37,536 bases of DNA. Source: a virus. Below, in pieces: positions 599 to 26,419 of this stretch. The stretch covers positions 1-37,536 of IMG/VR virus record IMGVR_UViG_3300023178_002183. One strand, 5' to 3'. Below the pieces are notes generated by a model. It made no database searches. It had not been told where the DNA came from and saw nothing but the letters and a program-made list of their open reading frames with translations. A program made the position numbers and the translations under genes. The first letter of the stretch is position 1; the number at the start of each line of letters is the position of its first letter.

Positions 599-3500
599 TT
601 ATTTCTCATTTAAATTTATTTTTTTTAATTCATTAGCACTTAGATGTCGTTCTGCAAATGCTCTTAGAATCGGGCGTAAACATGTGTTGTCTCCCCCTTG
701 TGCTCTAGCATCTCTAAATGCATCTAACATTGCTGGAACCGGAATAGCCCAATATGCATGAAATTGTTTTTGTAAATCGCTTGCTGGTAAATGATCTGCT
801 AATAAAGTATTTAAAAGGCTTACTCTGTCATTGTTTGGTACACCGTTTTCTGTAATACTTTCTTTAGCCATTTTAGTTGCAGTAGCATACATAACTGCTT
901 TAGCATCTTTACCGTAACGCTTCTTAAAGTCTTTGGTATTTTTCTTCATGCCTTTGACATATTTTTCTTTGTCTTTTTCTTCGCCTTTAGTTAGAGGACG
1001 TTCTAAAACTTTAGACTGCTCTAAAATAATTAACTGTTCTTCTAATGGTAATTGGTCAAACTTGTCAAAAGCATTTTCTCTACCCATCATTCTAATCCTG
1101 TCTTGTTGAGCCCGGGCCTGTTCAATGGCGTTGTTAGCTCTTGCTATATGCCCTTGGAAGTCATTTGGTGGAGAACCTATTGATTTTTCTTTCATCATAT
1201 TTTGTAAAAGAGCCTTTTTGTATGATTCTGTATTATTTCCTAAAAGGAAATCTACCAACTTGTTTACGTCAGGTCTTACAATATAATTTTGCATACCCGA
1301 ATTCATCATCTTATCAAAATCATCATATTTCGCCCTGGCTTTTTCGTAATCTGCTTCTGTTGTTGTGTCATTGTTTATACGCCATGCCGCGGCGGAACCT
1401 GGCTCAAATGGCTCGCCATCTGGTCCGGTGAGATCTGCTCTGGGTATTAGCGGTCCAAATTTTCCTACGCCTTCTCTGCCGTCACCCAATTTGTCTGTAA
1501 ACACAACGTTTTGTTGTTTGAGTTTGGTTCTTACTCTCTGATTGTCATCATTGATGTCGATGTATTTGTCAGTGAGATCTTGAAAATCTATTTTGTATGT
1601 GCTTTCAAATTTTCTCAGCACTTCTCTGGCTTTTTCCCAACGCCAAGTATCTTTATACTGCTCTGGGTTTGCTAACATTTTTGATGCTTCTAATGCAGTG
1701 AAGTAGTGTATGGTGGGCATTATCAACAGTTCACCAAAATCAGTGCGGTGTATGTTGCTGGTTTGCCGAAGAGCTCTTGCAACGCCTTCTGGTGCCATGT
1801 GCTCTACAGAATTGGCAAAATCTTTTTCTGCAAACACATATCCACCAAATTCAAATGCATCTACTTTGAATGTTTGTGGGCCATGTTTTTTCTGGAACTT
1901 TGCCTGCTGTTTGTCTAACTGTTTCTTATTGGCAATTTCACCGCTTTGGCTATCAAATCCGTGACTTTGTGCTATTTTGTCAAAGCCACTTAAAAATTCT
2001 TTGATAGCATCTGATCTCTTTTTAATCAGATCTGGCACTGAACCTATTTTATAAAATCCAGAGTTTTCTCTGCTTTTCATTAAGTAGTATCTGTCATAGG
2101 ATCTGCGGATATAATTCTGAATGCGATCACGTAACTGATGTGCCACAGGATCTTCAAATGGTGTCGGTCTGTCGATCTGTTTCACAGCATCCATCAAACT
2201 GTTTGCGTCTCTTTCCAGCATACCAAAATACATTTCACCATCTCTGTGACTGTTGTGATCGGTACCTTCGAGATCACTATATATACGGTCCATATATTCA
2301 TCTTCAGTTCTAACAACCGACACAAGATCTGTTACCAACTTGGCAATTTCTCTCATGCTGTCAATGTATTTGCCTGGATTCTCTTCTCTGATATCTTCCA
2401 AGTGATCCCAACGAGCTCGCATTTTGATCAGCATTTTACTGAGGGCATTATCTACATAACTGTCGTCAGATGAGGTAATTGGATTGTGATTTTTGCTCAC
2501 AGGATGTTCCCAGTCTGGGTACTGTTTGAGATGGTCAATGAATGCTTTTAGTTTTTTAGTGTCTACTGCGTTACCAGCCGTAAACATTGCCTTCTCGCCG
2601 TAACTACCTTGAGTAACTGATTTGTGGAATTCTTTGTACTCTCTGCCTCTACTACCGCTGTTTGCTTGATCCAGCCAATATGCAACATTGTCTGTGGTTA
2701 AGTTTGCGGTACCTGCTAACAGTTCTACAAATTGTCTTGCTCGTTGGCCGTCTTGTAATTCGCCACTGTGTACAGCATTCCACATGCCGTTGATCAGTTT
2801 TTCTACTTGGTTGGCACTTAGGTATTCTGGCTCTTGAACAACTGATTTCTTGAACAGTTTGTCTACACCATTCTTAACTCTGCCTAATACCTGTTTAGGT
2901 GTTAAGTCACTGTAACGGTCACCGGTGTCTATGCTATTAGCATCTATTAAATTACTTAATTTGTCATAATCCAATTCAAAATCTTTAAGAGCACTTCTCA
3001 ATATGCCAATGCTTTTAGCATTAGGTGTTAAACGGTTATGTCCTTGACTGAAGTCGTAGCCTGCTTGTGCAACTGCACCTGCAAAATATTTTTGTGCTTT
3101 GTTTAATAAATCTTGTAATCTATCTGCATCAGGACCATCAGTTTCAACATCTTCATTTTGTTTATTTTTTAGTTGTTTATATTCTGCAAGTAGATTATAC
3201 GCCGCGGCAAGATATCTCAGATGCTCAACATAATTGTCTTTGCTGAAGTAATCTTTAAGTACATCAACCGCTGGTGCTTCAACATCAGGATTAATTCTGT
3301 CTTTAACTCGTTCTTCGTCATCTGCACTGATTTTACCAATGTTGTTAATCAATCTGTATAATGCCGATGCATAGTCACGATTGTAGAGTTTATCACTATA
3401 AGCGGCTTGCATTGTTGCCGCATAACGAATCACTGCTTTTGCAACTTTAGGGTAATCTCTGTGGTAGTCTGAACCACCACCGATTCTAAATTCAATAAGT

Positions 3501-5239
3501 TGATTACCTGTATTACTGTCTCGTTGGTCTTTGAAATTTATACTGCTGAACTTGTCTCTGTTGATACCTGAACTTAGAACATCTTCAATTTGTTGAATAG
3601 TTTTAGCATCTGGGTTTGCTTTTAATTTGTGGCCTAACTTTTCTAAATTTTTATATTGGCTTTTGGCATAACTGTTGTTTTCCCTGCCAAATGTGCTGAG
3701 TAAATATTTGTCACCCAACAATACTGCAAGTTTAACTGAATTTATTTTTTCAGCATCTTCGCTGTCTAAACTCATAGTCACATGCAAGCCAGTTGAACTG
3801 TTGGTATCTACATCCTGCTCTTCTAACCAAGCAAATAGGCTTTTCATTTCTTCCAGCATTTTTCTAGGTGTAGAGTAAACTGGTGAAATGATTTCAGACC
3901 CTGTGCCATCTGTCTGAATACTGCTGTCATCTTCCACACGCCAGTAATCTTGAGTAGTGTCACCGGCTCTGCTGTGATATTCCCCTGCCATAACATCTTG
4001 ATATTGGCTGTTTTCGTCTGTCCAACTAGTCAGATATTCTGCAACTTCTTCTTGGCCACCACCTTCGCCTCCACGGTTTGGATCGTACAAATATATTTCA
4101 TGCTCACTTAAACAACTGGCCCAACTACCGTATTCTTCATTTGCCCAGTAGTCCATGTCATACTCTGATCGAGCTCTATCAATAGCATCGTCAAATGCTT
4201 CGCCATTTTCGCGGATATCTTCTCTTAACCAATCTTTGTATTCGCCTAATAATTCTTCTTCCACATACTGACGCCCCCAATTCATAAAGTCCCAATCAGC
4301 ATATTCGTCATGGTCTTCTTCGGGTAAGTCATCTAATATGCGTTCTTTGTATTCTTCTATGTCATCTTCGCTAAGTTCATCTTCTATGTACTTGTTGAGA
4401 TAATATTCATCTTCTTCACGGTCAGCAACCATTTCATCGATGATGTCACTTTCAAGTTCCAATGCTGGACCTTCCACTATCCATTCATTATAACTCTCTT
4501 CAACTCTATTGACAGATCTGCTACCTTCCTGATCGTATATAAAATCTTCAATATCATACCAGTTGTATTCATATAGCCAATCACCGTCGTCATCGCTACT
4601 ACCATACACACTGTCCCATGAAGTTTCTGCTTCAAAGCCACATTTGATAGGCAAGTCTAGTGCCTGCTGTGCAATTTCTTTTTTGTTGAAATTGATTTCA
4701 AAAATCAGTTCTTCGCCTTGCTCTCTTAATTTATGTTTGCGAGTAAGTTTTTTAATTTTTCTACCAAGTTTGTAAAGTTTCCTGTCTTTGCTTAACTTTT
4801 TACCTAGTTTGCCCTCTTCTACTTCTAAATATTCTGGATTTTGTACGAACATTTCTTCATCGGGGTCAACAATTCTAAATTGATTCTTAGGATCTTTTAT
4901 TACTACTGCTTCAGGGTTAGGTTTGTCTCCAACTTTGCTTACAACTGTTCCTATATCTTTTCCATCTTTGTCTTTTAAGACAGAATCCACATCTTGCTCG
5001 CCTGCCTTTGTAGAAATTATAGGGTCTTGTTCTAATTGATCTTGCCTTGCTATTTTTGCAGTAGTAGGACTTACATTTTTTGCCGTTGTGGGACTAGGTG
5101 ATTTTTCTTGACTTGGAGATTTTTGATTTGATTTAGCGACACTGCCCATAGACTGTTGGCCCACGGGTGTACTAACACCAGGTTTCATTCCATATTCTTT
5201 CAAAAGAGATTGCAGTGTTTTGAAATCTTTTGCTTTCAT
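599..5239 (-). CDS. Giant 1546-aa protein with amidoligase-type domain, probable capsid-targeted
   Basis: This is the largest gene of the window. Residues 1-15 (MKAKDFKTLQSLLKE) end in L-K-E, a possible T4 gp21-type cleavage site. A Ser/Pro/Lys-rich linker (about 30-110) follows. Amidoligase (glutamate-cysteine ligase/glutamine-synthetase fold) signatures are then split: GFEAET at 201-206, WRVEDDSSI at 433-441, GSEIISPV at 447-454, STGLHVTMS at 482-490 and IEFRIGGGSDYH near 620. Family members form amide bonds with ATP. A very acidic insert (about 215-430, many D/E/Y/W) separates the first and second signatures, which is unusual. The remaining ~900 residues are helical, charged and unassigned. 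The start codon overlaps the preceding stop as TAATG at 5239, so translation is probably coupled to the basic protein. I infer a virion (internal) protein that may modify host or capsid proteins; substrate unknown. Confidence 0.75.
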   Translation of the reverse strand: MKAKDFKTLQSLLKEYGMKPGVSTPVGQQSMGSVAKSNQKSPSQEKSPSPTTAKNVSPTTAKIARQDQLEQDPIISTKAGEQDVDSVLKDKDGKDIGTVVSKVGDKPNPEAVVIKDPKNQFRIVDPDEEMFVQNPEYLEVEEGKLGKKLSKDRKLYKLGRKIKKLTRKHKLREQGEELIFEINFNKKEIAQQALDLPIKCGFEAETSWDSVYGSSDDDGDWLYEYNWYDIEDFIYDQEGSRSVNRVEESYNEWIVEGPALELESDIIDEMVADREEDEYYLNKYIEDELSEDDIEEYKERILDDLPEEDHDEYADWDFMNWGRQYVEEELLGEYKDWLREDIRENGEAFDDAIDRARSEYDMDYWANEEYGSWASCLSEHEIYLYDPNRGGEGGGQEEVAEYLTSWTDENSQYQDVMAGEYHSRAGDTTQDYWRVEDDSSIQTDGTGSEIISPVYSTPRKMLEEMKSLFAWLEEQDVDTNSSTGLHVTMSLDSEDAEKINSVKLAVLLGDKYLLSTFGRENNSYAKSQYKNLEKLGHKLKANPDAKTIQQIEDVLSSGINRDKFSSINFKDQRDSNTGNQLIEFRIGGGSDYHRDYPKVAKAVIRYAATMQAAYSDKLYNRDYASALYRLINNIGKISADDEERVKDRINPDVEAPAVDVLKDYFSKDNYVEHLRYLAAAYNLLAEYKQLKNKQNEDVETDGPDADRLQDLLNKAQKYFAGAVAQAGYDFSQGHNRLTPNAKSIGILRSALKDFELDYDKLSNLIDANSIDTGDRYSDLTPKQVLGRVKNGVDKLFKKSVVQEPEYLSANQVEKLINGMWNAVHSGELQDGQRARQFVELLAGTANLTTDNVAYWLDQANSGSRGREYKEFHKSVTQGSYGEKAMFTAGNAVDTKKLKAFIDHLKQYPDWEHPVSKNHNPITSSDDSYVDNALSKMLIKMRARWDHLEDIREENPGKYIDSMREIAKLVTDLVSVVRTEDEYMDRIYSDLEGTDHNSHRDGEMYFGMLERDANSLMDAVKQIDRPTPFEDPVAHQLRDRIQNYIRRSYDRYYLMKSRENSGFYKIGSVPDLIKKRSDAIKEFLSGFDKIAQSHGFDSQSGEIANKKQLDKQQAKFQKKHGPQTFKVDAFEFGGYVFAEKDFANSVEHMAPEGVARALRQTSNIHRTDFGELLIMPTIHYFTALEASKMLANPEQYKDTWRWEKAREVLRKFESTYKIDFQDLTDKYIDINDDNQRVRTKLKQQNVVFTDKLGDGREGVGKFGPLIPRADLTGPDGEPFEPGSAAAWRINNDTTTEADYEKARAKYDDFDKMMNSGMQNYIVRPDVNKLVDFLLGNNTESYKKALLQNMMKEKSIGSPPNDFQGHIARANNAIEQARAQQDRIRMMGRENAFDKFDQLPLEEQLIILEQSKVLERPLTKGEEKDKEKYVKGMKKNTKDFKKRYGKDAKAVMYATATKMAKESITENGVPNNDRVSLLNTLLADHLPASDLQKQFHAYWAIPVPAMLDAFRDARAQGGDNTCLRPILRAFAERHLSANELKKINLNEK

Positions 5240-15956: not shown

Positions 15957-16203
15957 CGCTAAACAACATGCTCCATTTCATTAATTTTTCTTTTTTCTCT
16001 TTCATTCTATCTGTGATTTGTTCATTGGTGACGAGACCACTCATTTTCATTATCTCAATCATGGTCATAACGTCACCAATTTCATCTTGTAAATTACGCA
16101 AATACTTTGTTTTGCCTTTACTACGAATCATTTTACTGCATGCTTGAATTAGCTCGCCACATTCTTCCATAGTAATAACTAACATTTCTTCACGTTTTTT
16201 CAT
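15946..16203 (-). CDS. mazG: MazG-type nucleotide pyrophosphohydrolase
   Basis: 85 aa, a single MazG domain: EECGELIQACSK supplies the E-E-x-x-E metal site and LQDEIGDVMTMIEIM the E-x-x-D pair. MazG enzymes hydrolyse dNTPs/NTPs (or ppGpp in some proposals) to monophosphates. Overlapping thyX and the DnaE-like gene in one run, it probably shapes the nucleotide pool during infection. The short, all-alpha form is typical of phages. Confidence 0.88.
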   Translation of the reverse strand: MKKREEMLVITMEECGELIQACSKMIRSKGKTKYLRNLQDEIGDVMTMIEIMKMSGLVTNEQITDRMKEKKEKLMKWSMLFSDED

Positions 16204-16886
16204 ATTTCTTTACCTTTAAATTCCTCTGCAAGTGGAAATATGTTTGCTATAACATTTGCTACTGCATGAGCAATATCAATATGCTCTTTTTGTGTACCAT
16301 TAGCACCACGTAATTCGATATAGTGTATCCAACTACGCAACGTACCATTCACATACAAGCGGCTTATAGTGTTTCCTTCAGGTAATACTGCTCTGGCCTG
16401 CTCTTTAGCAATGCCATTATCGATAGCCCACTTGTAAGCAATCTTGGCTTCGTCTATAACACGTTGTTGCATTTGGAACCAACGATCTTGTAAGCCACCT
16501 TCGTATTCATCAGTCATATCAAGTGCGATACTGTTTTGACGATTCTTAGGATCTTGTAATCTAGCATCACGCAATTCAAAATCCAAATCTTTTGTAGGAT
16601 CTGCATAACGTTGACTGAACTCTTGGAAACTAAAACTTCTGTGTCTTAGAATCTGTCTAGCAATGTCTCTGGTTGTTTCAATCTCCAAACATGCACTCAC
16701 CATTTCAAGTGGGCTCCAATGTTTGTGCTTCATCAAATACTTTACTAGTTTCTCACTTGTTTCCGTGTTGTTTTGATTGTCCGGGTTGCTTACTCTAGCA
16801 CAATATGCTACTAAGTCTAATGCTGATGCTTTATGCATACTGTCGTTAAACGGTGCTTGACTGTGACTAATTATTTTTACGTTCAT
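16200..16886 (-). CDS. thyX: Flavin-dependent thymidylate synthase ThyX
   Basis: 228 aa from ATG 16886, chosen because it overlaps the upstream stop as ATGA; an in-frame ATG at 16904 would add six residues. The ThyX signature RHRxxSxxxxSxR is intact at 81-93 (RHRSFSFQEFSQR). It makes dTMP from dUMP using FAD, NADPH and methylene-tetrahydrofolate. T4 itself uses ThyA-type synthase; ThyX is common in marine T4-type phages. It sits between MazG and the zinc-finger gene and serves DNA precursor supply. Confidence 0.96.
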   Translation of the reverse strand: MNVKIISHSQAPFNDSMHKASALDLVAYCARVSNPDNQNNTETSEKLVKYLMKHKHWSPLEMVSACLEIETTRDIARQILRHRSFSFQEFSQRYADPTKDLDFELRDARLQDPKNRQNSIALDMTDEYEGGLQDRWFQMQQRVIDEAKIAYKWAIDNGIAKEQARAVLPEGNTISRLYVNGTLRSWIHYIELRGANGTQKEHIDIAHAVANVIANIFPLAEEFKGKEI

Positions 16887-17587
16887 AAATTTGCTACCTT
16901 GCATGTGTTTTTTATTTCTTTTACTTCTTCTTTATTTTGTGCAAACACCTTCATCCAAAATGTTGCATCAATAATTTGTTGAATCATTTTTACTTGTTCA
17001 TCACTAAATTTTTCTAATAATTGATCCCCCGTTTCGCTTAGATATAATAACCAAGGACTTATTTTGGCACTTCTTAAATCATGGACTGCTCTTGGTGCTG
17101 TTACTTTAGTAAAGTATTCATTCCAATTATTATCAGTTTCTTCTGACCACGTATTCAAATAAATTATGCTACGCTCTAATGCTTTCATACCAGGTTCTTT
17201 TTTTACATATTCTAAAAGATACTCGTCGTATAGTTTATCTTTGCTCCAGTCTGCTAATTTTTTACCGTTCTTTATTAACCATTCTGCAAATTGCTCTGGT
17301 TTTAAATATTCATTTACTAAACAACTTCTACCAAATTTAGTAAATCCTTCATAATACTGACTTCTGATAAAATCCTCAATGGTCTTTGTCTTGCTTGCAG
17401 TTGTGTTCAACTCGTAAAACATCTGGAATACTCTAAAACCTAATCTTATATGAGTTAGATCTTTATCAGCCCATCTACGTTTTTTAACACACATATGAGC
17501 CGCAAGGGTACGCTCACTTGCAAAAGTTTTTTCGCACCATTTGCAAGTATTATTTTCCAAAGATATCTTTGATTGATTTGTCGTCAT
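16883..17587 (-). CDS. Zinc-finger-type conserved phage protein
   Basis: 234 aa. Residues 15-33 read CKWCEKTFASERTLAAHMC, a C2H2-like finger with a final Cys (C-x2-C ... H-x-C), then KKRRW, followed by a long helical body with no enzyme motif. Such fingers often bind nucleic acid. It overlaps both the gp62-like gene and thyX, which puts it in the nucleotide/replication run. I recall related proteins in marine T4-type phages; function unknown. Confidence 0.72.
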   Translation of the reverse strand: MTTNQSKISLENNTCKWCEKTFASERTLAAHMCVKKRRWADKDLTHIRLGFRVFQMFYELNTTASKTKTIEDFIRSQYYEGFTKFGRSCLVNEYLKPEQFAEWLIKNGKKLADWSKDKLYDEYLLEYVKKEPGMKALERSIIYLNTWSEETDNNWNEYFTKVTAPRAVHDLRSAKISPWLLYLSETGDQLLEKFSDEQVKMIQQIIDATFWMKVFAQNKEEVKEIKNTCKVANL

Positions 17588-18017
17588 ATCCGTGTGCTTC
17601 TGCTAATTCTTTTAATTCTTCGGTAGTGTTTATGTTAATAAGTTCGTTTATATCTTCGTTTTTCATATGCGGGAAAATACTATATATGAATTCGAAAACT
17701 TTATTCTTTTTCTTTTTTGAATTTGGCGGTTTTAAATAAGGATGAAATTGTACTTTTCCTACACCACATGCACTGAGTAAAAGCCATTGTAATTCTGGGT
17801 GCTTGCTAACTTCCATAAATTGATGATTAACGAGCTCATTAGTCATGTAGATATAATTTGCGGCATCTCTACCTTGTACACTGCTACAATAACGCATCAT
17901 CATCCATGCACTAAATGCTTTTTTCTGTTCATCATTAAGGCGACTGTAAAACGATCTATCTTTTTTGTCAATAGCCGCCATTACATCTTTTAGTGGTATC
18001 TGTGGCTGTTTAGCCAT
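17550..18017 (-). CDS. 62: Clamp-loader small subunit, gp62-like
   Basis: 155 aa, helical. The opening KDVMAAIDKKDRSFYSRLND, the FSAWMMMRYCSS segment and LQWLLLSACGVGK then HPYLKPP match what I recall of gp62-type proteins in marine T4-like phages (T4 gp62 is ~187 aa and diverged). gp62 joins gp44 to load the sliding clamp. gp44 is not in this window. Start 18017 overlaps the apt stop as TAATG with a GAGGGTG ribosome site. Confidence 0.62.
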   Translation of the reverse strand: MAKQPQIPLKDVMAAIDKKDRSFYSRLNDEQKKAFSAWMMMRYCSSVQGRDAANYIYMTNELVNHQFMEVSKHPELQWLLLSACGVGKVQFHPYLKPPNSKKKKNKVFEFIYSIFPHMKNEDINELININTTEELKELAEAHGYDDKSIKDIFGK

Positions 18018-18550
18018 TATTCACCCTCAAATTCAATTAAAGTTTTAACGTTATATCCGTTATCCTTTATTATAGCACTTCCTCCTAAATCGGGCAAGTC
18101 TATTACTGCCAGAATTTGAATATTTTCTTTGGAGATGTTCCAGTGTTCGTGAATTAGATCTGCACATGCTAGTGCTGTGCCACCGGTAGCAATAAGATCA
18201 TCTACAATGGTAATATTGCCTTGTATGGGCGATATTTTTTGTATGTGTAATTCTGTTGACCCATATTCTAAATCAAAACTTTTGCTGACTGTTTCATTGG
18301 GTAACTTTCCTGGTTTTCTTGCAGGCACAAATGGCAAATAAAATTTTTCTGCTAATGGTGTACCAAAAATAAAACCTCTACTTTCAATACCAACAATTAC
18401 ATCAGGATTAAATTTGTGTGCTTCAAAACACAGAGACAGCATTACGCTTTTAAAAGAAGAAGGATCTTCTAGCAGACTGGTTATATCTCTATATTGTATT
18501 CCAGGTATAGGAAAATTTGGTATTGTTCTGATATTATTTTTAAAATTCAT
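18017..18550 (-). CDS. apt: Adenine phosphoribosyltransferase
   Basis: 177 aa, the normal Apt length. FPIPGIQYRDITSLLEDP near the N-terminus, VGIESRGFIFGTPLA (adenine-binding region), PARKPGKLP, and the PRPP-binding loop VDDLIATGGT at 116-125 identify it. It converts adenine + PRPP to AMP. The start overlaps the metK stop by 11 nt, giving an SAM-synthesis/adenine-salvage pair. Phage apt genes are uncommon in T4-type genomes as far as I know. Confidence 0.95.
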   Translation of the reverse strand: MNFKNNIRTIPNFPIPGIQYRDITSLLEDPSSFKSVMLSLCFEAHKFNPDVIVGIESRGFIFGTPLAEKFYLPFVPARKPGKLPNETVSKSFDLEYGSTELHIQKISPIQGNITIVDDLIATGGTALACADLIHEHWNISKENIQILAVIDLPDLGGSAIIKDNGYNVKTLIEFEGE

Positions 18551-19631
18551 TCCAGCTCTCTATTTTTTCCCATGGTAATTCGCTTTTGCCAAAATGGCCG
18601 TAATTTGTAGTTTGTGTTAAATCTAAATCAAACAAATTAAATTTTTGAATTATACCTTTTGGGGTAAGGTCTATGTTTTCTTTAAACCAATCGGAAATGT
18701 CTTTTCTTACTTTGCCATCTGCATATACATATACACTTGTCGGTTGTTTAACACCAATAGCATAACTTAATTGAACTGTAGCATTATTTGCTTTGCCATT
18801 TCCTACAATGTTCTTTGCCAAATAGCGAGCCATATATGCGGCTGATCTGTCCACTTTAGTACAGTCTTTACCGCTAAATGCACCCCCACCATGTGGAGCA
18901 TACCCGCCATAAGTATCAACAATAATTTTACGTCCAGTAAGTCCAGTATCTCCATCTGGTCCTCCAATTACAAATCTGCCTGTAGGGTTAATTAAAAACT
19001 CTGTGTTGTTAAAATTTCCAGGCACAGTATCATTAATAACTTGTCTAACTGTTTCTCTGATTTTTTCAATTGATACATCTTCACTGTGCTGTGTACTGCA
19101 AACAACTTTTGGTATAGATAATGGAACCCCTACATTTTCGTAAGTCATAGTGACCTGCGATTTACTGTCTGGGCCTAACCAGTTAATTTCGTTTCTTGCT
19201 TCGTCTAAGGATCTTAAAATTTCATGACTATAATAAATTGCACTTGGCATAAAAGAAGGGGTTTCGTTACAAGCATATCCAAACATAATACCTTGATCAC
19301 CTGCACCTAAGTTATCAGTGCCAAGTGCAATGTCAGGTGATTGCCCGTGCAACTCGTTATAAATATTTAAAGCCTCCCAATGAAATCCTTCTTGCTCATA
19401 GCCAATGTCTTTTACAACTTTTCTAACAATTCTATTAATAGCAACTCGATCAAACTTGTCACTCTTATATTCACCTGCAAGCATGACCATATTAGTTGTT
19501 ACTAGAGTTTCGACAGCCGCTCTGTGGTTAATATTTTTATCTATAAGATATGTTGCTACAGCATCAGAAATTAAGTCTGCTACTTTGTCTGGATGACCTT
19601 TGCTAACACTTTCACTTGTAAATTGATACAT
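18540..19631 (-). CDS. metK: S-adenosylmethionine synthetase
   Basis: 363 aa, near the ~384-aa bacterial length. GHPDK at 12-16, GAGDQGIMFGYACNETP and GGGAFSGKDCTKVDRSAAY mark the ATP/methionine site. It makes SAM from ATP and methionine. All main motifs look intact, so it is probably active. The gene is 1 nt from the upstream 126-aa gene, with a GAGGAAT ribosome site. It could support methyltransferases or raise SAM for host-DNA or phage-DNA methylation; no methyltransferase lies in this window. Confidence 0.96.
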   Translation of the reverse strand: MYQFTSESVSKGHPDKVADLISDAVATYLIDKNINHRAAVETLVTTNMVMLAGEYKSDKFDRVAINRIVRKVVKDIGYEQEGFHWEALNIYNELHGQSPDIALGTDNLGAGDQGIMFGYACNETPSFMPSAIYYSHEILRSLDEARNEINWLGPDSKSQVTMTYENVGVPLSIPKVVCSTQHSEDVSIEKIRETVRQVINDTVPGNFNNTEFLINPTGRFVIGGPDGDTGLTGRKIIVDTYGGYAPHGGGAFSGKDCTKVDRSAAYMARYLAKNIVGNGKANNATVQLSYAIGVKQPTSVYVYADGKVRKDISDWFKENIDLTPKGIIQKFNLFDLDLTQTTNYGHFGKSELPWEKIESWNEF

Positions 19632-19632
19632 T

Positions 19633-20013
19633 TTAATTCCTCATTTTTAAATTTAATATTGTTTCCCATTCCGCATATTGTATTTGATTTAAAGCATCTA
19701 CTGGAAAATTAGGTGGACTCCAGGGTACGGTTCTACGTCTTCTATAGATAGTTTTAAACCAAACCTTTTCACCGGTCATAGTTTTTACAGGTTTCCAAGC
19801 AAACCATTCTTTCCATTCTGTATATTGTGCATCTGTTGGTTGCGGTTTCAAATGTGGGTACCTTATATATGCTGGATGTCCATGTGTTCCGTACACTGTA
19901 ATATTTTTTGTTGGGTTTATTAAATATTTTTTTCCGTCTATTTTTGTATATGGATTACCATGCTTGTCTGTCTTTCCTAACAAATGTGTGAGAAAGTTTT
20001 TAAAGTTTTCCAT
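19633..20013 (-). CDS. Hypothetical protein upstream of metK, 126 aa
   Basis: Starts MENFKNFLTHLLGKTDKHGN; rich in Trp, Pro, Lys and Tyr with a motif-like stretch THGHPAYIRYPHLKPQPT and WKEWFAWKPVKT. It overlaps the kinase-nucleotidylyltransferase gene by 14 nt and is 1 nt from metK. No family recognised. Its fixed place suggests a function in the same run, but nothing else can be said. Confidence 0.7.
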   Translation of the reverse strand: MENFKNFLTHLLGKTDKHGNPYTKIDGKKYLINPTKNITVYGTHGHPAYIRYPHLKPQPTDAQYTEWKEWFAWKPVKTMTGEKVWFKTIYRRRRTVPWSPPNFPVDALNQIQYAEWETILNLKMRN

Positions 20014-20800
20014 CCTTTCTCATTTGCTCTCTAATTTTCGTTGCACTTATATTGTGCGTAGCATCATCAAATGTCTCCTGCTCAATTTTGTAACCAACAT
20101 CTCTACCGTATGTAATATTCATAATATTTGGCATAGGATAGCATCTAAATTTGCCTGCATATTCTGCTAATTCTATTTCTAAATTTTCACAAATTTCTTC
20201 TACTGTCCATGGATTACTTTCGCTTCTTGGCATGTCTCTGACAAGTAATGCTACTTGTCCATGCTTTGCTAATGCTCTTTCGAATAGTGCTTTGTGGCCT
20301 GGATGAAAGGGCTGAAATCTTCCCAGCATTTGTGTGGTTGGTTGTTTTGGTTGGAACTCACTGTCTTTGATATCGACGGCAATTAATCTTGCCCATTTCT
20401 CAATTGATTCTTCAGTCCACCAATCGTCTGCTGTTATTTCAATATCAACATTTACACTATCATCTGGTTTTTCAAACACTTTGTTTGTGTCTTCAAACCG
20501 TCCTTCTTTAATAGTGTTCATCCAGATAACGTATTCCGGCATAAAATCATTTCTCAACTGATTTGTAGGGCATACAAAATCAGCCAATCCATATCTACCC
20601 TTAGCAACACTTTTGCGTACATAATCTTGCATACGCTTCATTTGTCTTGCTCTGCCTACTGGCGAAAAGTCCCAATCTTTAAACTTTTCTCTTATTTCAT
20701 CTGCATTGTACCAATCGGCATTTCCTAATACTTCTACTAGGCGTTTTGCTAACGTTGTTTTGCCTGCGCCTGGCAAGCCACATAACAATATTCTTTTCAT
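20000..20800 (-). CDS. Kinase-nucleotidylyltransferase fusion
   Basis: 266 aa with two domains. Residues 1-~145 form a P-loop kinase (GLPGAGKTT at 8-16, then NADEIREKF and a DWDFSPVGR-type lid), most like APS/polynucleotide-kinase-type small kinases. Residues ~155-266 form a cytidylyltransferase-like domain with GRFQPFHPGHKALF (HxGH at 166-169) and ISATKIRE near 252, the ISSTxIR-type motif. This order (kinase first) is the reverse of NadR. Possible roles: NAD precursor or nucleotide-sugar/ sulfate activation. ATG follows a weak AGGAA site; no clear promoter upstream. Confidence 0.85.
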   Translation of the reverse strand: MKRILLCGLPGAGKTTLAKRLVEVLGNADWYNADEIREKFKDWDFSPVGRARQMKRMQDYVRKSVAKGRYGLADFVCPTNQLRNDFMPEYVIWMNTIKEGRFEDTNKVFEKPDDSVNVDIEITADDWWTEESIEKWARLIAVDIKDSEFQPKQPTTQMLGRFQPFHPGHKALFERALAKHGQVALLVRDMPRSESNPWTVEEICENLEIELAEYAGKFRCYPMPNIMNITYGRDVGYKIEQETFDDATHNISATKIREQMRKDGKL

Positions 20801-21552: not shown

Positions 21553-22050
21553 TTATAGCATATCTGCTATATCCATGTCCTTAACTTTGTTTGCTTCCTT
21601 TACAAATAATGCACATTTAGGTTCTGGCTTGTCTTCCAAAGGAACAACTAAAAGGTGCCCGTTTTTTAATTTAGGAAAGAACCATTTTACATCTTGGTAC
21701 ACATTTGTAATTTGTATTTCTTCTGCTTTTGGCATCCAACTTTTCATTGGATTAAAAATTGGTGTTACAAAGCCTCTATTGTTTAAACTTGCTAAAGGTA
21801 TTACTTCAATGCCTCCAAAATCATCGTCACTGGTAACAATGCTCCAGTCCATTGGCATTTGTAAATTATACTCGCCGATACTTAAACAGATTGCTGGAGC
21901 ATGAAAACTTTCTAAAAAGATTAAAGGTAACCAATAATAGTCTTGAAACTCTGCATCTCCTGCGTCAAAAACGCAATATCTTAATTCTTCTACTTCGTCT
22001 GGCACACGATCTAAATCATATGCTGTATTCTCTAAGGTTAAAATTTTCAT
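21553..22050 (-). CDS. Conserved T4-type marine phage protein next to uvsW, 165 aa
   Basis: Folded-looking alpha/beta protein with LPLIFLESFHAPAICLSIGE, then MPMDWSIVTSDDDFGGIEVI and NPMKSWMPKAEEIQITNV, and a WFFPKLKNGHLLVVPL strand pair. I recall the same protein next to uvsW in other marine T4-type phages; function unknown. The start overlaps the uvsW stop as ATGA (22047-22050), so it is translated from the uvsW transcript. Confidence 0.78.
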   Translation of the reverse strand: MKILTLENTAYDLDRVPDEVEELRYCVFDAGDAEFQDYYWLPLIFLESFHAPAICLSIGEYNLQMPMDWSIVTSDDDFGGIEVIPLASLNNRGFVTPIFNPMKSWMPKAEEIQITNVYQDVKWFFPKLKNGHLLVVPLEDKPEPKCALFVKEANKVKDMDIADML

Positions 22051-23504
22051 TTATACTCCACTTTGGTTACTTGAAATCTAAAATTCTGCTCCTTGTAAAA
22101 AGCCTTTCTTTTAGTCAAGTGTCGTTTGCTGTACTTCAAATTGCTTGTTATATCAACAACATTAACATAATCTTTGTCCTGTGCTTTACGAATACCTCTA
22201 CCGATACTCTGTATTACACGAACAAAACTTTTACCGGGTTCCAATAGCACCAAATTAAATATTCTTGGTATATTGATACCGACTGCCGCAACACCGTATG
22301 TTGCAACAATGACTTTATTATCCATTTCACTAACTTCTTCGTATTCTTTTTGCCTGTCTTTTGTTTTCATAGAACCGCTTACAAAAACCCAGTCGTCGTT
22401 CCTTTCTGCCAACATTTCACCGGTAGCAATCCTATCGATTAATACTAGTGTGTTTCCTGTTGTGGAAAGACCATTTATAATTTCGCTAATATGATCTATT
22501 CTTTTAGAATCTGTAACTAGCCATTTTAATTCTTGTGCGTAACTGCTAAATCCTAAAGCACCATCTTGTAACTGCAATACACTTATATCTAAGTCAGCCA
22601 GTACTCCCATATCTTGTAATTCTTTACTGCTGAGATTGCCCACTACTGGTCCTAAACAGCAAGTACATGCAACGGCTTCGTGTTCGTCTTTAGGTACTGT
22701 TCCAGTTAGCCCCCAACGAATAGGAACATTAGCAAATGGTCCACTTAACAGGTTTCGTAGCACATCTGCTTTTGCTTTGTGTACTTCATCGACCATTATA
22801 CAAACTACATTGTCTAAAAATACATCCAAATCTATTGATGCTTCGTTAGCCTTTGTTTTCTTTTCTAACACTGCTAAACTTTGCCATGTACAAATAGTAT
22901 GTGTCTTATCGTACTCTTTTCTATCTCCATATAAAACACCTACATCGAGACCTAAATTTTTATAATCTTTTTCTGTTTGTACTACTAAATCTTTATTAGG
23001 TACAATAACAATAGTTCTACCATATTGTTGTGCTTTATGACTCAGTACAGCAGTAACAAGAGTCTTTCCTGCTCCTGTTGCAACTTCTTGTAGGCATTGT
23101 GTGTTTTCTAAAAATTTATTAATTACATCAACTTGATAATCTCTTAGTAGTACGGGTTCTCCTTCTGCAGGGTGCCCCTTAGGCCAAGCAATGTCTTCGT
23201 AATCAGTTTGCTCAACTTTAGAAAATTCAAATTGCCAACTCTGCCTCATATCTTTAATATCAATGCTGTAGCCGGCTTCTTGAACTATGGGCAGTAATTT
23301 ATCTAATAAATTAAGATACGTTCTACCACCTATATCGCAAAATCTTACACAACCATCCCATCTACCCAATTTGTAAGCAGGCATATGATATGCGTATGGT
23401 AGAAAATATTTTGCTTCATCTGAGATTCTTCTTCTAGTTTTTACATCTAAATCTAAAAACTTTACATTTACTTCGTCTCTGATTTCTAACGTTGTTTTAG
23501 GCAT
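22047..23504 (-). CDS. uvsW: UvsW-type SF2 DNA helicase
   Basis: 485 aa (T4 UvsW ~500). Helicase motif I EVATGAGKT (GAGKT at 144-148), motif II DEVH in VCIMVDEVHKA, motif III LTGT, and motif VI SIGRGIRK near the C-terminus. It branch-migrates recombination intermediates and helps switch from origin to recombination-dependent replication. Its start lies 5 nt behind a TATAAT box, implying a leaderless message. Confidence 0.95.
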   Translation of the reverse strand: MPKTTLEIRDEVNVKFLDLDVKTRRRISDEAKYFLPYAYHMPAYKLGRWDGCVRFCDIGGRTYLNLLDKLLPIVQEAGYSIDIKDMRQSWQFEFSKVEQTDYEDIAWPKGHPAEGEPVLLRDYQVDVINKFLENTQCLQEVATGAGKTLVTAVLSHKAQQYGRTIVIVPNKDLVVQTEKDYKNLGLDVGVLYGDRKEYDKTHTICTWQSLAVLEKKTKANEASIDLDVFLDNVVCIMVDEVHKAKADVLRNLLSGPFANVPIRWGLTGTVPKDEHEAVACTCCLGPVVGNLSSKELQDMGVLADLDISVLQLQDGALGFSSYAQELKWLVTDSKRIDHISEIINGLSTTGNTLVLIDRIATGEMLAERNDDWVFVSGSMKTKDRQKEYEEVSEMDNKVIVATYGVAAVGINIPRIFNLVLLEPGKSFVRVIQSIGRGIRKAQDKDYVNVVDITSNLKYSKRHLTKRKAFYKEQNFRFQVTKVEYK

Positions 23505-23509
23505 AAGTT

Positions 23510-23539
23510 ATTATACTACCATACATACTGAAAAGTCAA
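23510..23539 (-). promoter_or_regulatory. sigma70 promoter for uvsW inside the TonB-receptor gene end
   Basis: Minus-strand TTGACT (23539-23534), 18-nt spacer, TATAAT (23515-23510). The -35 box lies in the last codons of the receptor gene. The -10 box is 5 nt from the uvsW ATG. Confidence 0.85.
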
Positions 23540-25156
23540 GTAAAACTCTCTACCTTCATTATTATAAAAAGGTAATATTTCTACTTCTTGGTTTAACACA
23601 TTCTCTACTTTGAAACTAAGTGTGTAGTTAGGCCATCTTTTAGTAAAGTAAAAATTTAGTTTCTCTAAATCTTCTAACTCAGCCCCGTCAAATGGACCTG
23701 GAATTCTGTCTTGATTTATTGTGTACTTTGCTCTGAATTCTGTGTTAGCAAATTCAGTGGTGTATTGTATCATACCCATATACTTGGCTACTCTAGGTTG
23801 CTCTGTGTCGTTGTATCTTAATTGTATATCAATAGGACCAAAACTTTGAGCATACTTTGTACCTTGTGTGGTATATCCGCCGGCGTTGTAGTACACATTG
23901 TCTGTGTAATTATAATCAATTGACTCATCGAAAACATATTTAAAGAAACCAAGTACACCATACCCAAATTCATAACCTTTGCCTTTCTCAGGAGTTAGAT
24001 CAGGATTTGCTGTTACCCAACCGTCACCATATCTCTCATACAAGTTAGGCTTTCTAAAACTGGTGCCAACACTGGCATAAAACAATCCACTTTCAAAACC
24101 AAAACGGTAAGCATTTTGATTGTCGTTGCCTTGTCTAACACCTATGTTGTATTTGTTGCCTAACACTTCAGCGTTAACACTCACAAAGCCAGCAAAGTTT
24201 TCTTCTGTTACTGTGTTGTATTGTTCTTTGTTGTAGTCTAATCCGTATGTTAAATCAAATAGGTTAGATAGGCGTGATTGATTTATAAAGCGAAAGTAAT
24301 CTCTGCTACTTTCGTTCACATAAGTTGAAGCAGTATTAGTAAAATACTCTGCGTTGTTTTCACTTCTACCTAATGTAAAATTTTCGTTTTGTATGGTTAC
24401 AACATACCTGTCGCCTATTTGCTCACAGTTATTACTTACTGAAAAGTCCTCAGCATAGCAGTTGTCGTAGTCGTACTCATAGTCTGTGTATTTGCCTGTT
24501 ACAGTAAACTCGCCTACATCAAAGTTAAATTTACTGCTGGCATTCTTGTAAGCATCTTCTTCTGTGTTGTCGTTTCTAGCACTCTGCTGTTGTGCGTCAA
24601 ACAGTGTAAACTGTAAATTATCGTTTGGAGCAACACTCACATAAGTGTTGTCACTGCCGTATCTACCCATAGCATGATGTTTAATAGTGTCGTCTATTAA
24701 CACTGTGCCAGCAATACTGCCTGAGCCATACAGCACACCGTTAGGACCTGTGATAACTTTTACTGTTTGTCCTGTGGCTATATCATGCCCAAAATCATAC
24801 CAACCGCTACCAGGCTCATTAGCAGGAACATCGTTAACAAAAACTGCGGTGTGAACCAATTGAGCACCCGACGGATTATATCCAACAAAGCCACCATAAC
24901 CTCCTGCGTTATATGTGAAAGCAGGTATAATACTGCTTATGATTCGTGAACTTGTGACTGGATCCACTTTGATTGTTTTTTCTTGTTGTGCCACTACAAC
25001 AATTTCTTCCACAAATTCATCAACTGTGTGACCATGCCATGTTACATTATGATCGTCTGCTTTTGCTTCACTGGCCCATAGCATGAATAACATGAACGCA
25101 AATACAAAATACAATGGTGACATATTGAGGTGGAAATTTTTATCGAATTTATTCAT
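23516..25156 (-). CDS. TonB-dependent outer-membrane receptor (BtuB-like size)
   Basis: 546 aa. Signal peptide: residues ~12-33 hydrophobic, ending A-K-A before DD. A TonB-box-like EEIVVVAQ sits at 50-57, like the BtuB box. The plug contains ITGPNGVLYGSGSIAGTVLI, the RGPxxxLYGSxAxGG-type signature. Long barrel strands follow, including TSFRKPNLYERYGDGW and NPDLTPEKGKGYEFGYG, typical of TonB receptors, and the chain ends YLTFQYVW with an aromatic final residue as needed for outer-membrane assembly. It should sit in the host outer membrane and import a siderophore, cobalamin or other substrate, or alter the surface to block other phages. Own consensus promoter (25186-25213), GGAG ribosome site, terminator upstream. 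Intact, so under selection. Confidence 0.93.
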   Translation of the reverse strand: MNKFDKNFHLNMSPLYFVFAFMLFMLWASEAKADDHNVTWHGHTVDEFVEEIVVVAQQEKTIKVDPVTSSRIISSIIPAFTYNAGGYGGFVGYNPSGAQLVHTAVFVNDVPANEPGSGWYDFGHDIATGQTVKVITGPNGVLYGSGSIAGTVLIDDTIKHHAMGRYGSDNTYVSVAPNDNLQFTLFDAQQQSARNDNTEEDAYKNASSKFNFDVGEFTVTGKYTDYEYDYDNCYAEDFSVSNNCEQIGDRYVVTIQNENFTLGRSENNAEYFTNTASTYVNESSRDYFRFINQSRLSNLFDLTYGLDYNKEQYNTVTEENFAGFVSVNAEVLGNKYNIGVRQGNDNQNAYRFGFESGLFYASVGTSFRKPNLYERYGDGWVTANPDLTPEKGKGYEFGYGVLGFFKYVFDESIDYNYTDNVYYNAGGYTTQGTKYAQSFGPIDIQLRYNDTEQPRVAKYMGMIQYTTEFANTEFRAKYTINQDRIPGPFDGAELEDLEKLNFYFTKRWPNYTLSFKVENVLNQEVEILPFYNNEGREFYLTFQYVW

Positions 25157-25185: not shown

Positions 25186-25213
25186 ATTATACACGATGTT
25201 TGTGAAATGTCAA
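25186..25213 (-). promoter_or_regulatory. Consensus sigma70 promoter for the TonB receptor
   Basis: Minus-strand TTGACA (25213-25208), 16-nt spacer, TATAAT (25191-25186); about 30 nt of leader before the ATG at 25156. Confidence 0.93.
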
Positions 25214-25242: not shown

Positions 25243-25267
25243 GAAGCCCCCGAGAACCGGGGGCTTC
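25243..25267 (-). terminator. Strong hairpin, probable intrinsic terminator
   Basis: Perfect 10-bp GC-rich stem GAAGCCCCCG / CGGGGGCTTC with a 5-nt loop. In the minus-strand RNA it is followed by TCTCTTT, a moderate U-tract. It would stop transcripts coming from the AAA+ ATPase gene or the candidate small RNA before the receptor promoter. Confidence 0.8.
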
Positions 25268-25349: not shown

Positions 25350-26384
25350 TCACTGAAAAGCGACCCTTGTCATACAAGTTGACTCTGCAAGTTCTTTCCA
25401 AGTCTTAGGACTCATCTGACGCAAGTCAGCAATCTTAAGAACCATACGCAATGATATCTCACGAAGCCTATTAGCCTTCAATACCATAAAGTCAACAATT
25501 TCTTTGTTACCTTCTTCACCAAAGTCGTATTCGTTTAACATACCGTCACGTACGATTTGGTTAATTCGAAGGAACCTGTCACTAACACTGTCCATCTCAA
25601 GGTCAATGTAGTGACACCTTGACATAAGTGCTTCTAAGTGATCTTTGATCTTTTTACTCTTGACACCTTCAAAGTTCACATTGGTAATAAAGATACAACC
25701 ACCTTTGAACTCGAACCTATCAGGAATACCTTCCCTACGCAATGCGTTGGATTCTGACTTCCAAGAAATGTATCGCTTTTTACCTGAGTCAAGTACAGCC
25801 TTGAGCATGTTCAAACATACTTCGTCAAACAAGATGCTGTCGCAGTCGTCGAACACTAGGATGTCACCTGGGTTTGAGTTATTAAAAAGAGTTTGATACA
25901 AACCAATCGGTGTCATAGAGCCTTTTACAACTTCGGTTCTAGGTGGCTTACCAGCCAGTTTAGTCATTGCATCATATTCGTCAAGAATAGTTTCAACACC
26001 AAACGACTTACCAACACCCGGAGGGCCTGACACAATCAAACCACGGACTACACCGTTAGCAACTGCATCAGTCATTTGATCTAGAATTTCGAAGCGGCCT
26101 TTGATTCTATCCATTGCTTGCTCTGGAGTTTCTGCTTTTTTCTCTTCTTGCTGAGCAACTGGATTAGACACTTTATATTCCTCTTTATTAGATGGTTCAA
26201 TGTCTGCTGGTGTTTTTAGCAACACACGAATTTTGGTAGCCTGAGGACCCATAATGGCACTACCATCAACAGTAATGAATGGACCTTTCTTACCAAATGA
26301 AATTGGCTTTACTACCGGAAAAACCGTATCTTTGATAGGGGCGTTACGGTAAGTACCCTTTTTGATTTTAACAAAGTTTGTCAT
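25350..26384 (-). CDS. AAA+ ATPase
   Basis: I start at 26384 because GGGAGG lies 5-6 nt upstream; an in-frame ATG at 26402 would include that ribosome site. The 344-aa protein has an N-terminal ~95 residues, then Walker A GPPGVGKS at 120-127, Walker B ILVFDDCD, sensor-1-like FITN and a Arg-rich C-terminal lid (MSRCHYIDLEM, RLREISLRMVLKI). It is not gp44-like by its flanking motifs. A role in protein or DNA remodelling is likely; I recall such ATPases in marine T4-type phages, without known function. Own consensus promoter. Confidence 0.85.
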   Translation of the reverse strand: MTNFVKIKKGTYRNAPIKDTVFPVVKPISFGKKGPFITVDGSAIMGPQATKIRVLLKTPADIEPSNKEEYKVSNPVAQQEEKKAETPEQAMDRIKGRFEILDQMTDAVANGVVRGLIVSGPPGVGKSFGVETILDEYDAMTKLAGKPPRTEVVKGSMTPIGLYQTLFNNSNPGDILVFDDCDSILFDEVCLNMLKAVLDSGKKRYISWKSESNALRREGIPDRFEFKGGCIFITNVNFEGVKSKKIKDHLEALMSRCHYIDLEMDSVSDRFLRINQIVRDGMLNEYDFGEEGNKEIVDFMVLKANRLREISLRMVLKIADLRQMSPKTWKELAESTCMTRVAFQ

Positions 26385-26419
26385 TTTTGCCTCCCACAGC
26401 ATTAATTAACAATATAACT

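Follow-up and report, generated by a model that had tools for sequence, protein, structure and literature searches.

A BtuB-like TonB-dependent transporter gene kept in a clade of jumbo-myovirus-type phages

Background

Known auxiliary metabolic genes of phages mostly encode cytoplasmic enzymes. The closest described exception is a SusC-like TonB-dependent receptor, reported in two marine megaphages and proposed to act on carbohydrates (PMC9723777; A0A8D9FQQ5). Phages also invest in cobalamin-linked metabolism, through the B12-dependent ribonucleotide reductase (RNR) of cobaviruses (PMC6775973) and through cobalamin genes of the biosynthesis type (PMC13079714). These latter examples are cytoplasmic enzymes.

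Here we describe a phage gene that can be compared with both. The window, meaning the whole stretch of DNA analysed, is the IMG/VR virus record IMGVR_UViG_3300023178_002183, a genome fragment of 37.5 kb (37,536 nucleotides). Like the cobavirus reductase and the biosynthesis genes, its transporter would be an investment in cobalamin-linked metabolism, but the protein is predicted to be an outer-membrane importer, and the RNR of these phages is class Ia.

The Mar_Mega_1 receptor (A0A8D9FQQ5) is the sole credible viral fold match in BFVD. It resembles the window protein in being a TonB-dependent receptor of a large marine phage. It is however of the SusC type, is 805 amino acids long and is 12% identical in the fold alignment. 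This type of receptor was found in two megaphages, whereas the family described here is fixed in its clade. Related records and literature suggest that this clade is marine.

A tblastn search of INPHARED (50,697 phage records) found no homologue of the transporter, bar BtuB in two records named Salmonella, and no phage-encoded BtuB turned up in the open-access literature searched. Papers on TonB-dependent receptors in other contexts offered nothing pertinent. The two records, AGRM01000004.1 and AFYI01000005.1, look like bacterial contigs because they carry 16S rRNA along with BtuB. The unannotated PHROG 5687 weakly matches 30 of 34 family members, so databases may already contain unnamed phage receptors of broadly this sort. 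The novelty lies in the genetic setting, as the transporter superfamily itself is known. Its only described analogue is the SusC-like megaphage receptor.

The phage

The window covers part of a jumbo-myovirus-type genome. Its terminase, UvsX, UvsW, SSB and DnaB-type helicase are of the T4-like type. In UvsW and terminase, identity to cultured phages reaches 55-58% at best, and the nearest of them are jumbo phages: Phosso (469 kb), Atu_ph07 (490 kb) and the PA5oct-like phages (284-288 kb). Among the related contigs that bear the transporter are some of 340, 251 and 217 kb.

The cultured relatives differ from the window phage in the gene of interest. The family profile, run on the complete genomes of Phosso and PAC2, found no transporter gene in either, and tblastn of the phage collection gave no match in other cultured phages.

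An intact transporter gene

The gene is an open reading frame of 546 codons with zero internal stops (23516..25156, minus strand). From ORF, Pfam, profile and fold analyses together, its product is a BtuB-like TonB-dependent transporter of 546 amino acids. The preliminary description had listed a signal peptide, a TonB-box-like EEIVVVAQ, a plug and a barrel with a terminal aromatic residue. All of these were found again, using Pfam, a structural model and, for the signal peptide, reading by eye.

The putative signal peptide covers residues 1-33 (25058..25156, minus strand), ends in an AKA/D cleavage-like site and is a hydrophobic helix in the AlphaFold2 model. After it comes the Ton box VEEIVVVA at residues 49-56. 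The surrounding region, VEEIVVVAQ at residues 49-57 (24986..25012, minus strand), has the lowest column entropy in the protein. The plug domain, residues 60-151 (24704..24979, minus strand), matches Pfam PF07715 at 1.8e-6, above the gathering score, and the same domain is present in 34 of 34 family members tested.

AlphaFold2 was given 34 homologues as input. The resulting model (pLDDT 83.7, pTM 0.79) consists of a plug and a beta-barrel, the latter at residues 161-546 (23519..24676, minus strand), in which 22 strands were counted. The C-terminal residue is Trp. By sequence and model, then, the product is an intact TonB-dependent outer-membrane transporter. Frame breaks, which had been named as a possible objection, are excluded as far as the contigs allow, the relatives being uninterrupted frames as well.

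One distant branch of the family (L044, L047, L050, L056, L058, L059, L062, L072, L081) has C-termini reading ...YK, ...YR or ...SSN. Outer-membrane barrels usually end in an aromatic residue, which this branch lacks. In a scan of 75 loci it also has no recognisable promoter upstream of the transporter.

Relationship to BtuB

A PDB search with the single window protein returned nothing; the family profile was needed. With this profile, BtuB is the sole match in the PDB (E 1e-18). In an E. coli genome, which has 8 Plug-bearing receptors, BtuB alone falls below 1e-3. Of the 34 members, 28 match TonB-B12, more than match any other NCBIfam family. A Foldseek search of the PDB with the predicted structure gives BtuB for all of the first 11 matches (E 3e-21, TM 0.76). 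Further down come Bacteroides BtuB, ZnuD and siderophore receptors, and also PfeA and ChuA.

A tree of 48 receptors places the phage family on the BtuB side, as a single clade (support 100) with a long stem. The branch uniting it with non-enterobacterial relatives of BtuB has support 91, and the branch that parts the BtuB side from other receptors is weak (73). The bacterial rows in the receptor alignments were picked by their likeness to the phage profile. This means that their BtuB-likeness is not independent of the profile results, though their riboswitches are. Profile, predicted fold and phylogeny all set the transporter nearer to BtuB than to the remaining TonB-dependent receptors.

Shared with BtuB (TIGR01779; PDB 1nqh, 2gsk) are the plug and predicted 22-strand barrel, the Ton box, a C-terminal GRE-type strand and, in part, the acidic site of loops 2 and 3. 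The phage protein differs in being phage-encoded, in its length (546 versus 614 amino acids, with a shortened plug start), in an additional invariant Cys pair and in its missing cobalamin riboswitch. Identity to E. coli BtuB is 24%, and the TIGR01779 equivalog cut-off is missed by a wide margin (24.9 bits versus 599.7). Four riboswitch-controlled bacterial relatives likewise score below that cut-off, at 163-537 bits. Given this identity and scores so far below the cut-off, the substrate could have shifted from cobalamin.

The preliminary description proposed phylogeny as a way to find the donor. This was done, and no near donor emerged from 398 Pseudomonadota genomes, where the best matches reach 48-77 bits, compared with 660-865 within the phage family. 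Scanning bacterial genomes for the phage motif pattern did not find a relative either.

Riboswitches and ligand-site residues

Each of the five bacterial genes that match best is directly preceded by a cobalamin-type riboswitch. Among 20 other receptor loci of these genomes, scanned as a control, only one has such a riboswitch, and that locus (L182) was already on the BtuB side of the tree before the riboswitch scan. None was found on the phage gene when the window was scanned; this riboswitch is typical of the BtuB group, not strictly defining.

Site residues were read from two fast alignments of receptors, at the calcium and ligand positions of BtuB, which we take to be 179, 193, 195, 230 and 241 (with Y229). 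In BtuB, a calcium cage of five aspartates near the ligand sets affinity (PMC7360065). Two phage motifs are the aligned counterparts. The acidic loop 2 motif RNDNTEEDAY, residues 194-203 (24548..24577, minus strand), corresponds to D193/D195, and the loop 3 motif DYEYDYDNCY, residues 225-234 (24455..24484, minus strand), to Y229/D230.

BtuB D195, Y229 and D230 align with phage D201, Y230 and D231, which are invariant in the aligned rows. These three are common to seven or eight of the 8 BtuB-type rows (with F for Y in two) and mostly absent in other receptors. The partner of D193 varies with the alignment, being D196 in one case and E199 in the other. For two more cage residues, D179 and D241, the phage protein has no reliable counterpart.

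Loop 3 includes C233, which belongs to the invariant pair C233-C244 in the phage family. NTEDDGYEN and YDNC...NDC occur in L164, the bacterial relative with the highest score, so the phage's pair may have been inherited from a protein of this kind.

The preliminary description guessed at iron or cobalamin as the substrate. Profile, fold, tree, riboswitches and site residues favour cobalamin over iron. An importer of BtuB-like ancestry could have changed its specificity to another scarce ligand, such as siderophore-iron, haem, zinc or another cofactor. This seems unlikely to us, with BtuB ranking first in every comparison, its site residues kept in the phage protein, and the nearest bacterial relatives under B12-riboswitch control. 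Some data do point that way: the identity to any bacterial BtuB is low, the fold matches extend to ZnuD, PfeA, ChuA and others, and 17 of 34 members weakly match a haemoglobin/transferrin receptor model. The class Ia RNR of these phages, moreover, requires metal and not B12.

Distribution and evolution

Another 91 viral contigs encode a relative of the transporter. The 80 that were kept are 38-100% identical, and all are open frames except at contig ends. The usual gene order is AAA ATPase, transporter, uvsW.

Presence was surveyed in the 80 closest uvsW loci, of which 75 are informative and 5 were cut too short. The transporter is present in 71 of the 75, nearly always directly before uvsW. 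Looking in related phages had been suggested earlier, and the outcome qualifies the description of the gene as rare cargo. It is indeed rare among phages at large, going by the INPHARED search with its two Salmonella exceptions, but within this clade it is the norm.

In the 4 empty loci AAA and uvsW adjoin, with around 100 bp between them that hold a terminator-like repeat and a promoter. These four contigs are fragments, and no transporter was found elsewhere on them. More distant phages with the AAA-uvsW neighbourhood (uvsW 54-63% identical) are also without the gene. On the uvsW tree the distribution takes three changes, such as a single gain with two losses. On these sequence comparisons, the transporter was probably gained once near the base of the clade and occasionally lost.

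There are exceptions in position. L016, L022 and L025 and the L033-L038 group carry the transporter elsewhere, and in L077 it has unrelated neighbours. A profile search for a second copy per genome found none but a 12.7-bit fragment.

For pairs with enough change, dN/dS is about 0.07-0.2: the gene is under strong purifying selection. Its G+C is 0.376, compared with 0.357 and 0.408 for its neighbours. These figures bear on whether the gene is a recently captured host gene or an assembly chimera, without a function for the phage. The protein is of a bacterial type and absent from cultured relatives, as such an origin would have it. But the locus is shared by dozens of independent contigs, the phage family is monophyletic on its long stem, no near bacterial relative exists in the sample, and selection and neighbour-like G+C tell the same story. 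We regard capture or chimerism as extremely improbable. A chimera or stray host gene is refuted by the shared locus, the monophyly, the purifying selection and the presence in 71 of 75 loci. The concern about a chimeric contig, raised in the preliminary description, is removed as far as contigs allow, as the arrangement recurs in dozens of separate assemblies.

The transporter alleles have diverged further from one another than core genes have (median identity 46% versus 77-83%). They also follow them weakly, with rank correlations of 0.16-0.38 between transporter and core genes, compared with 0.66-0.68 among core genes. It may therefore be that alleles are exchanged between phages of the clade, or that the gene evolves fast.

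BtuB-type and other TonB-dependent receptors are known receptors for phages and colicins. A receptor-like barrel could serve as a surface decoy or for superinfection exclusion, where it blocks, competes with or replaces the host protein used by other phages or colicins. Divergent alleles that look as if they were exchanged would suit such a role, as would the highly variable length of loops 5 and 8 and the presence of a colicin complex (1ujw) among the fold matches.

Conservation within the protein argues otherwise. Mean column entropy is 0.76 bits for the Ton box, 1.16 for the plug, 1.26 for the extracellular loops and 1.64 for the barrel strands. Conservation is highest in the Ton box and plug, which transport requires and masking does not, and it is higher on average in the extracellular loops than in the barrel strands. 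Loops 5 and 8 do vary greatly in length. This pattern suits an unchanging ligand more than a surface caught in an arms race. Together with the strong purifying selection, it leads us to rate a decoy as quite improbable. The earlier idea of a changed cell surface is therefore less favoured, the plug and the ligand-side loops being the conserved parts. Import of a corrinoid is the preferred reading.

Promoter, terminator and neighbouring genes

A consensus promoter of its own and an upstream terminator had been claimed for the gene, and both have a match in the sequence. The putative sigma-70-type promoter, TTGACA-16-TATAAT (25186..25213, minus strand), agrees at 12 of 12 positions and lies 29 nt before the transporter ATG. 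An intrinsic-terminator-like hairpin with an 11-bp stem follows the AAA gene (25243..25267, minus strand).

Promoter-like sites are overall not commoner than in shuffles (72 versus 78), but only three reach 12/12 along the 20 kb scanned, the transporter promoter among them. An 11-12/12 site stands upstream of the transporter in 47 of 75 loci, while 17% of random windows have any site of at least 10/12. This recurrence lends the promoter credibility for the family's main branch.

The other two perfect sites of sigma-70 type (26652-26625 and 26447-26420, minus strand) are close together upstream of the AAA gene, and each has TG before the -10.

The neighbours marking the fixed locus are an AAA ATPase of phrog_1250 upstream (25350..26402, minus strand) and the uvsW helicase downstream (22047..23504, minus strand). 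Reading the AAA gene as CobS would have made this a cobalamin island. That assignment was rejected, as phrog_1250 is an ATPase common to many T4-type phages.

A promoter-like site for uvsW, TTGACT-18-TATAAT (23504-23539, minus strand), has its -35 within the last codons of the transporter (Leu-Thr). Its -10 lies just 6 nt before the uvsW ATG, and the uvsW mRNA may be nearly leaderless. In the empty sites of L242, L265 and L285 a promoter likewise stands immediately before uvsW.

Downstream of uvsW there is a block of cofactor and nucleotide genes. It comprises S-adenosylmethionine synthetase (MetK, 18540..19631, minus strand) and genes at 16200-16904, 20000-20800 and 18017-18550 (all minus strand). 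Besides MetK, its members are ThyX, a NadR-like-looking protein with kinase and adenylyltransferase parts, and a phosphoribosyltransferase. Elsewhere in the window, an ORF of 1546 amino acids (599-5239, minus strand) has a putative amidoligase domain (PF12224).

Proposed function

The reading we prefer is that the gene encodes a phage-owned, early-expressed importer of the BtuB type, which would use host TonB to raise corrinoid uptake. We put its probability at roughly 0.6, with both substrate and benefit inferred from the comparisons above.

Host RNA polymerase would transcribe the gene early, from its own sigma-70-type promoter. Sec and BAM would then export the protein and insert it in the host outer membrane. 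There it would draw on host TonB-ExbB-ExbD for the uptake of cobalamin, or of a related corrinoid, to the periplasm, from where inner-membrane transporters of the host could take over. The extra vitamin would support B12-dependent enzymes of the host, most plausibly methionine synthase, whose product could pass to S-adenosylmethionine via the phage MetK.

Host methionine synthase feeding phage MetK is, as a hypothesis, the most economical link, and makes MetK a possible metabolic partner of the transporter. The gene for MetK is about 4 kb downstream and is present in 9 of 11 contigs; the phage also encodes ThyX. A B12-dependent RNR as the consumer was rejected, the RNR of relatives being class Ia. 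With that, and with no phage-encoded MetH in the 11 contigs, a phage consumer of B12 is not established.

The gene can be called a phage auxiliary metabolic gene in that it is in a phage genome and under selection and has a putative function in host metabolism. If the reading is true, phages alter an infected cell's uptake of outside compounds, in this case of a vitamin made by some microbes only. It also predicts a rise of B12 uptake during infection.

A broader proposal is that outer-membrane vitamin capture is an inherited, standard part of infection in this jumbo-phage clade. The gene would have been gained once and kept beside recombination genes, with links to the phage's own SAM synthetase and, in some members, to radical-SAM enzymes, and infected cells would thereby compete for the cobalamin around them. 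We offer this tentatively and hold it to be rather less than an even bet.

The contigs of L008 and L009 encode a radical-SAM enzyme with a B12-binding domain, and that of L057 a radical-SAM protein in which this domain is below threshold. Such proteins are possible phage users of cobalamin. Radical-SAM proteins were also seen in the transporter-bearing contigs L093 (61-1683, minus strand) and L094 (1-1899, minus strand), one kind of them with a B12-binding domain.
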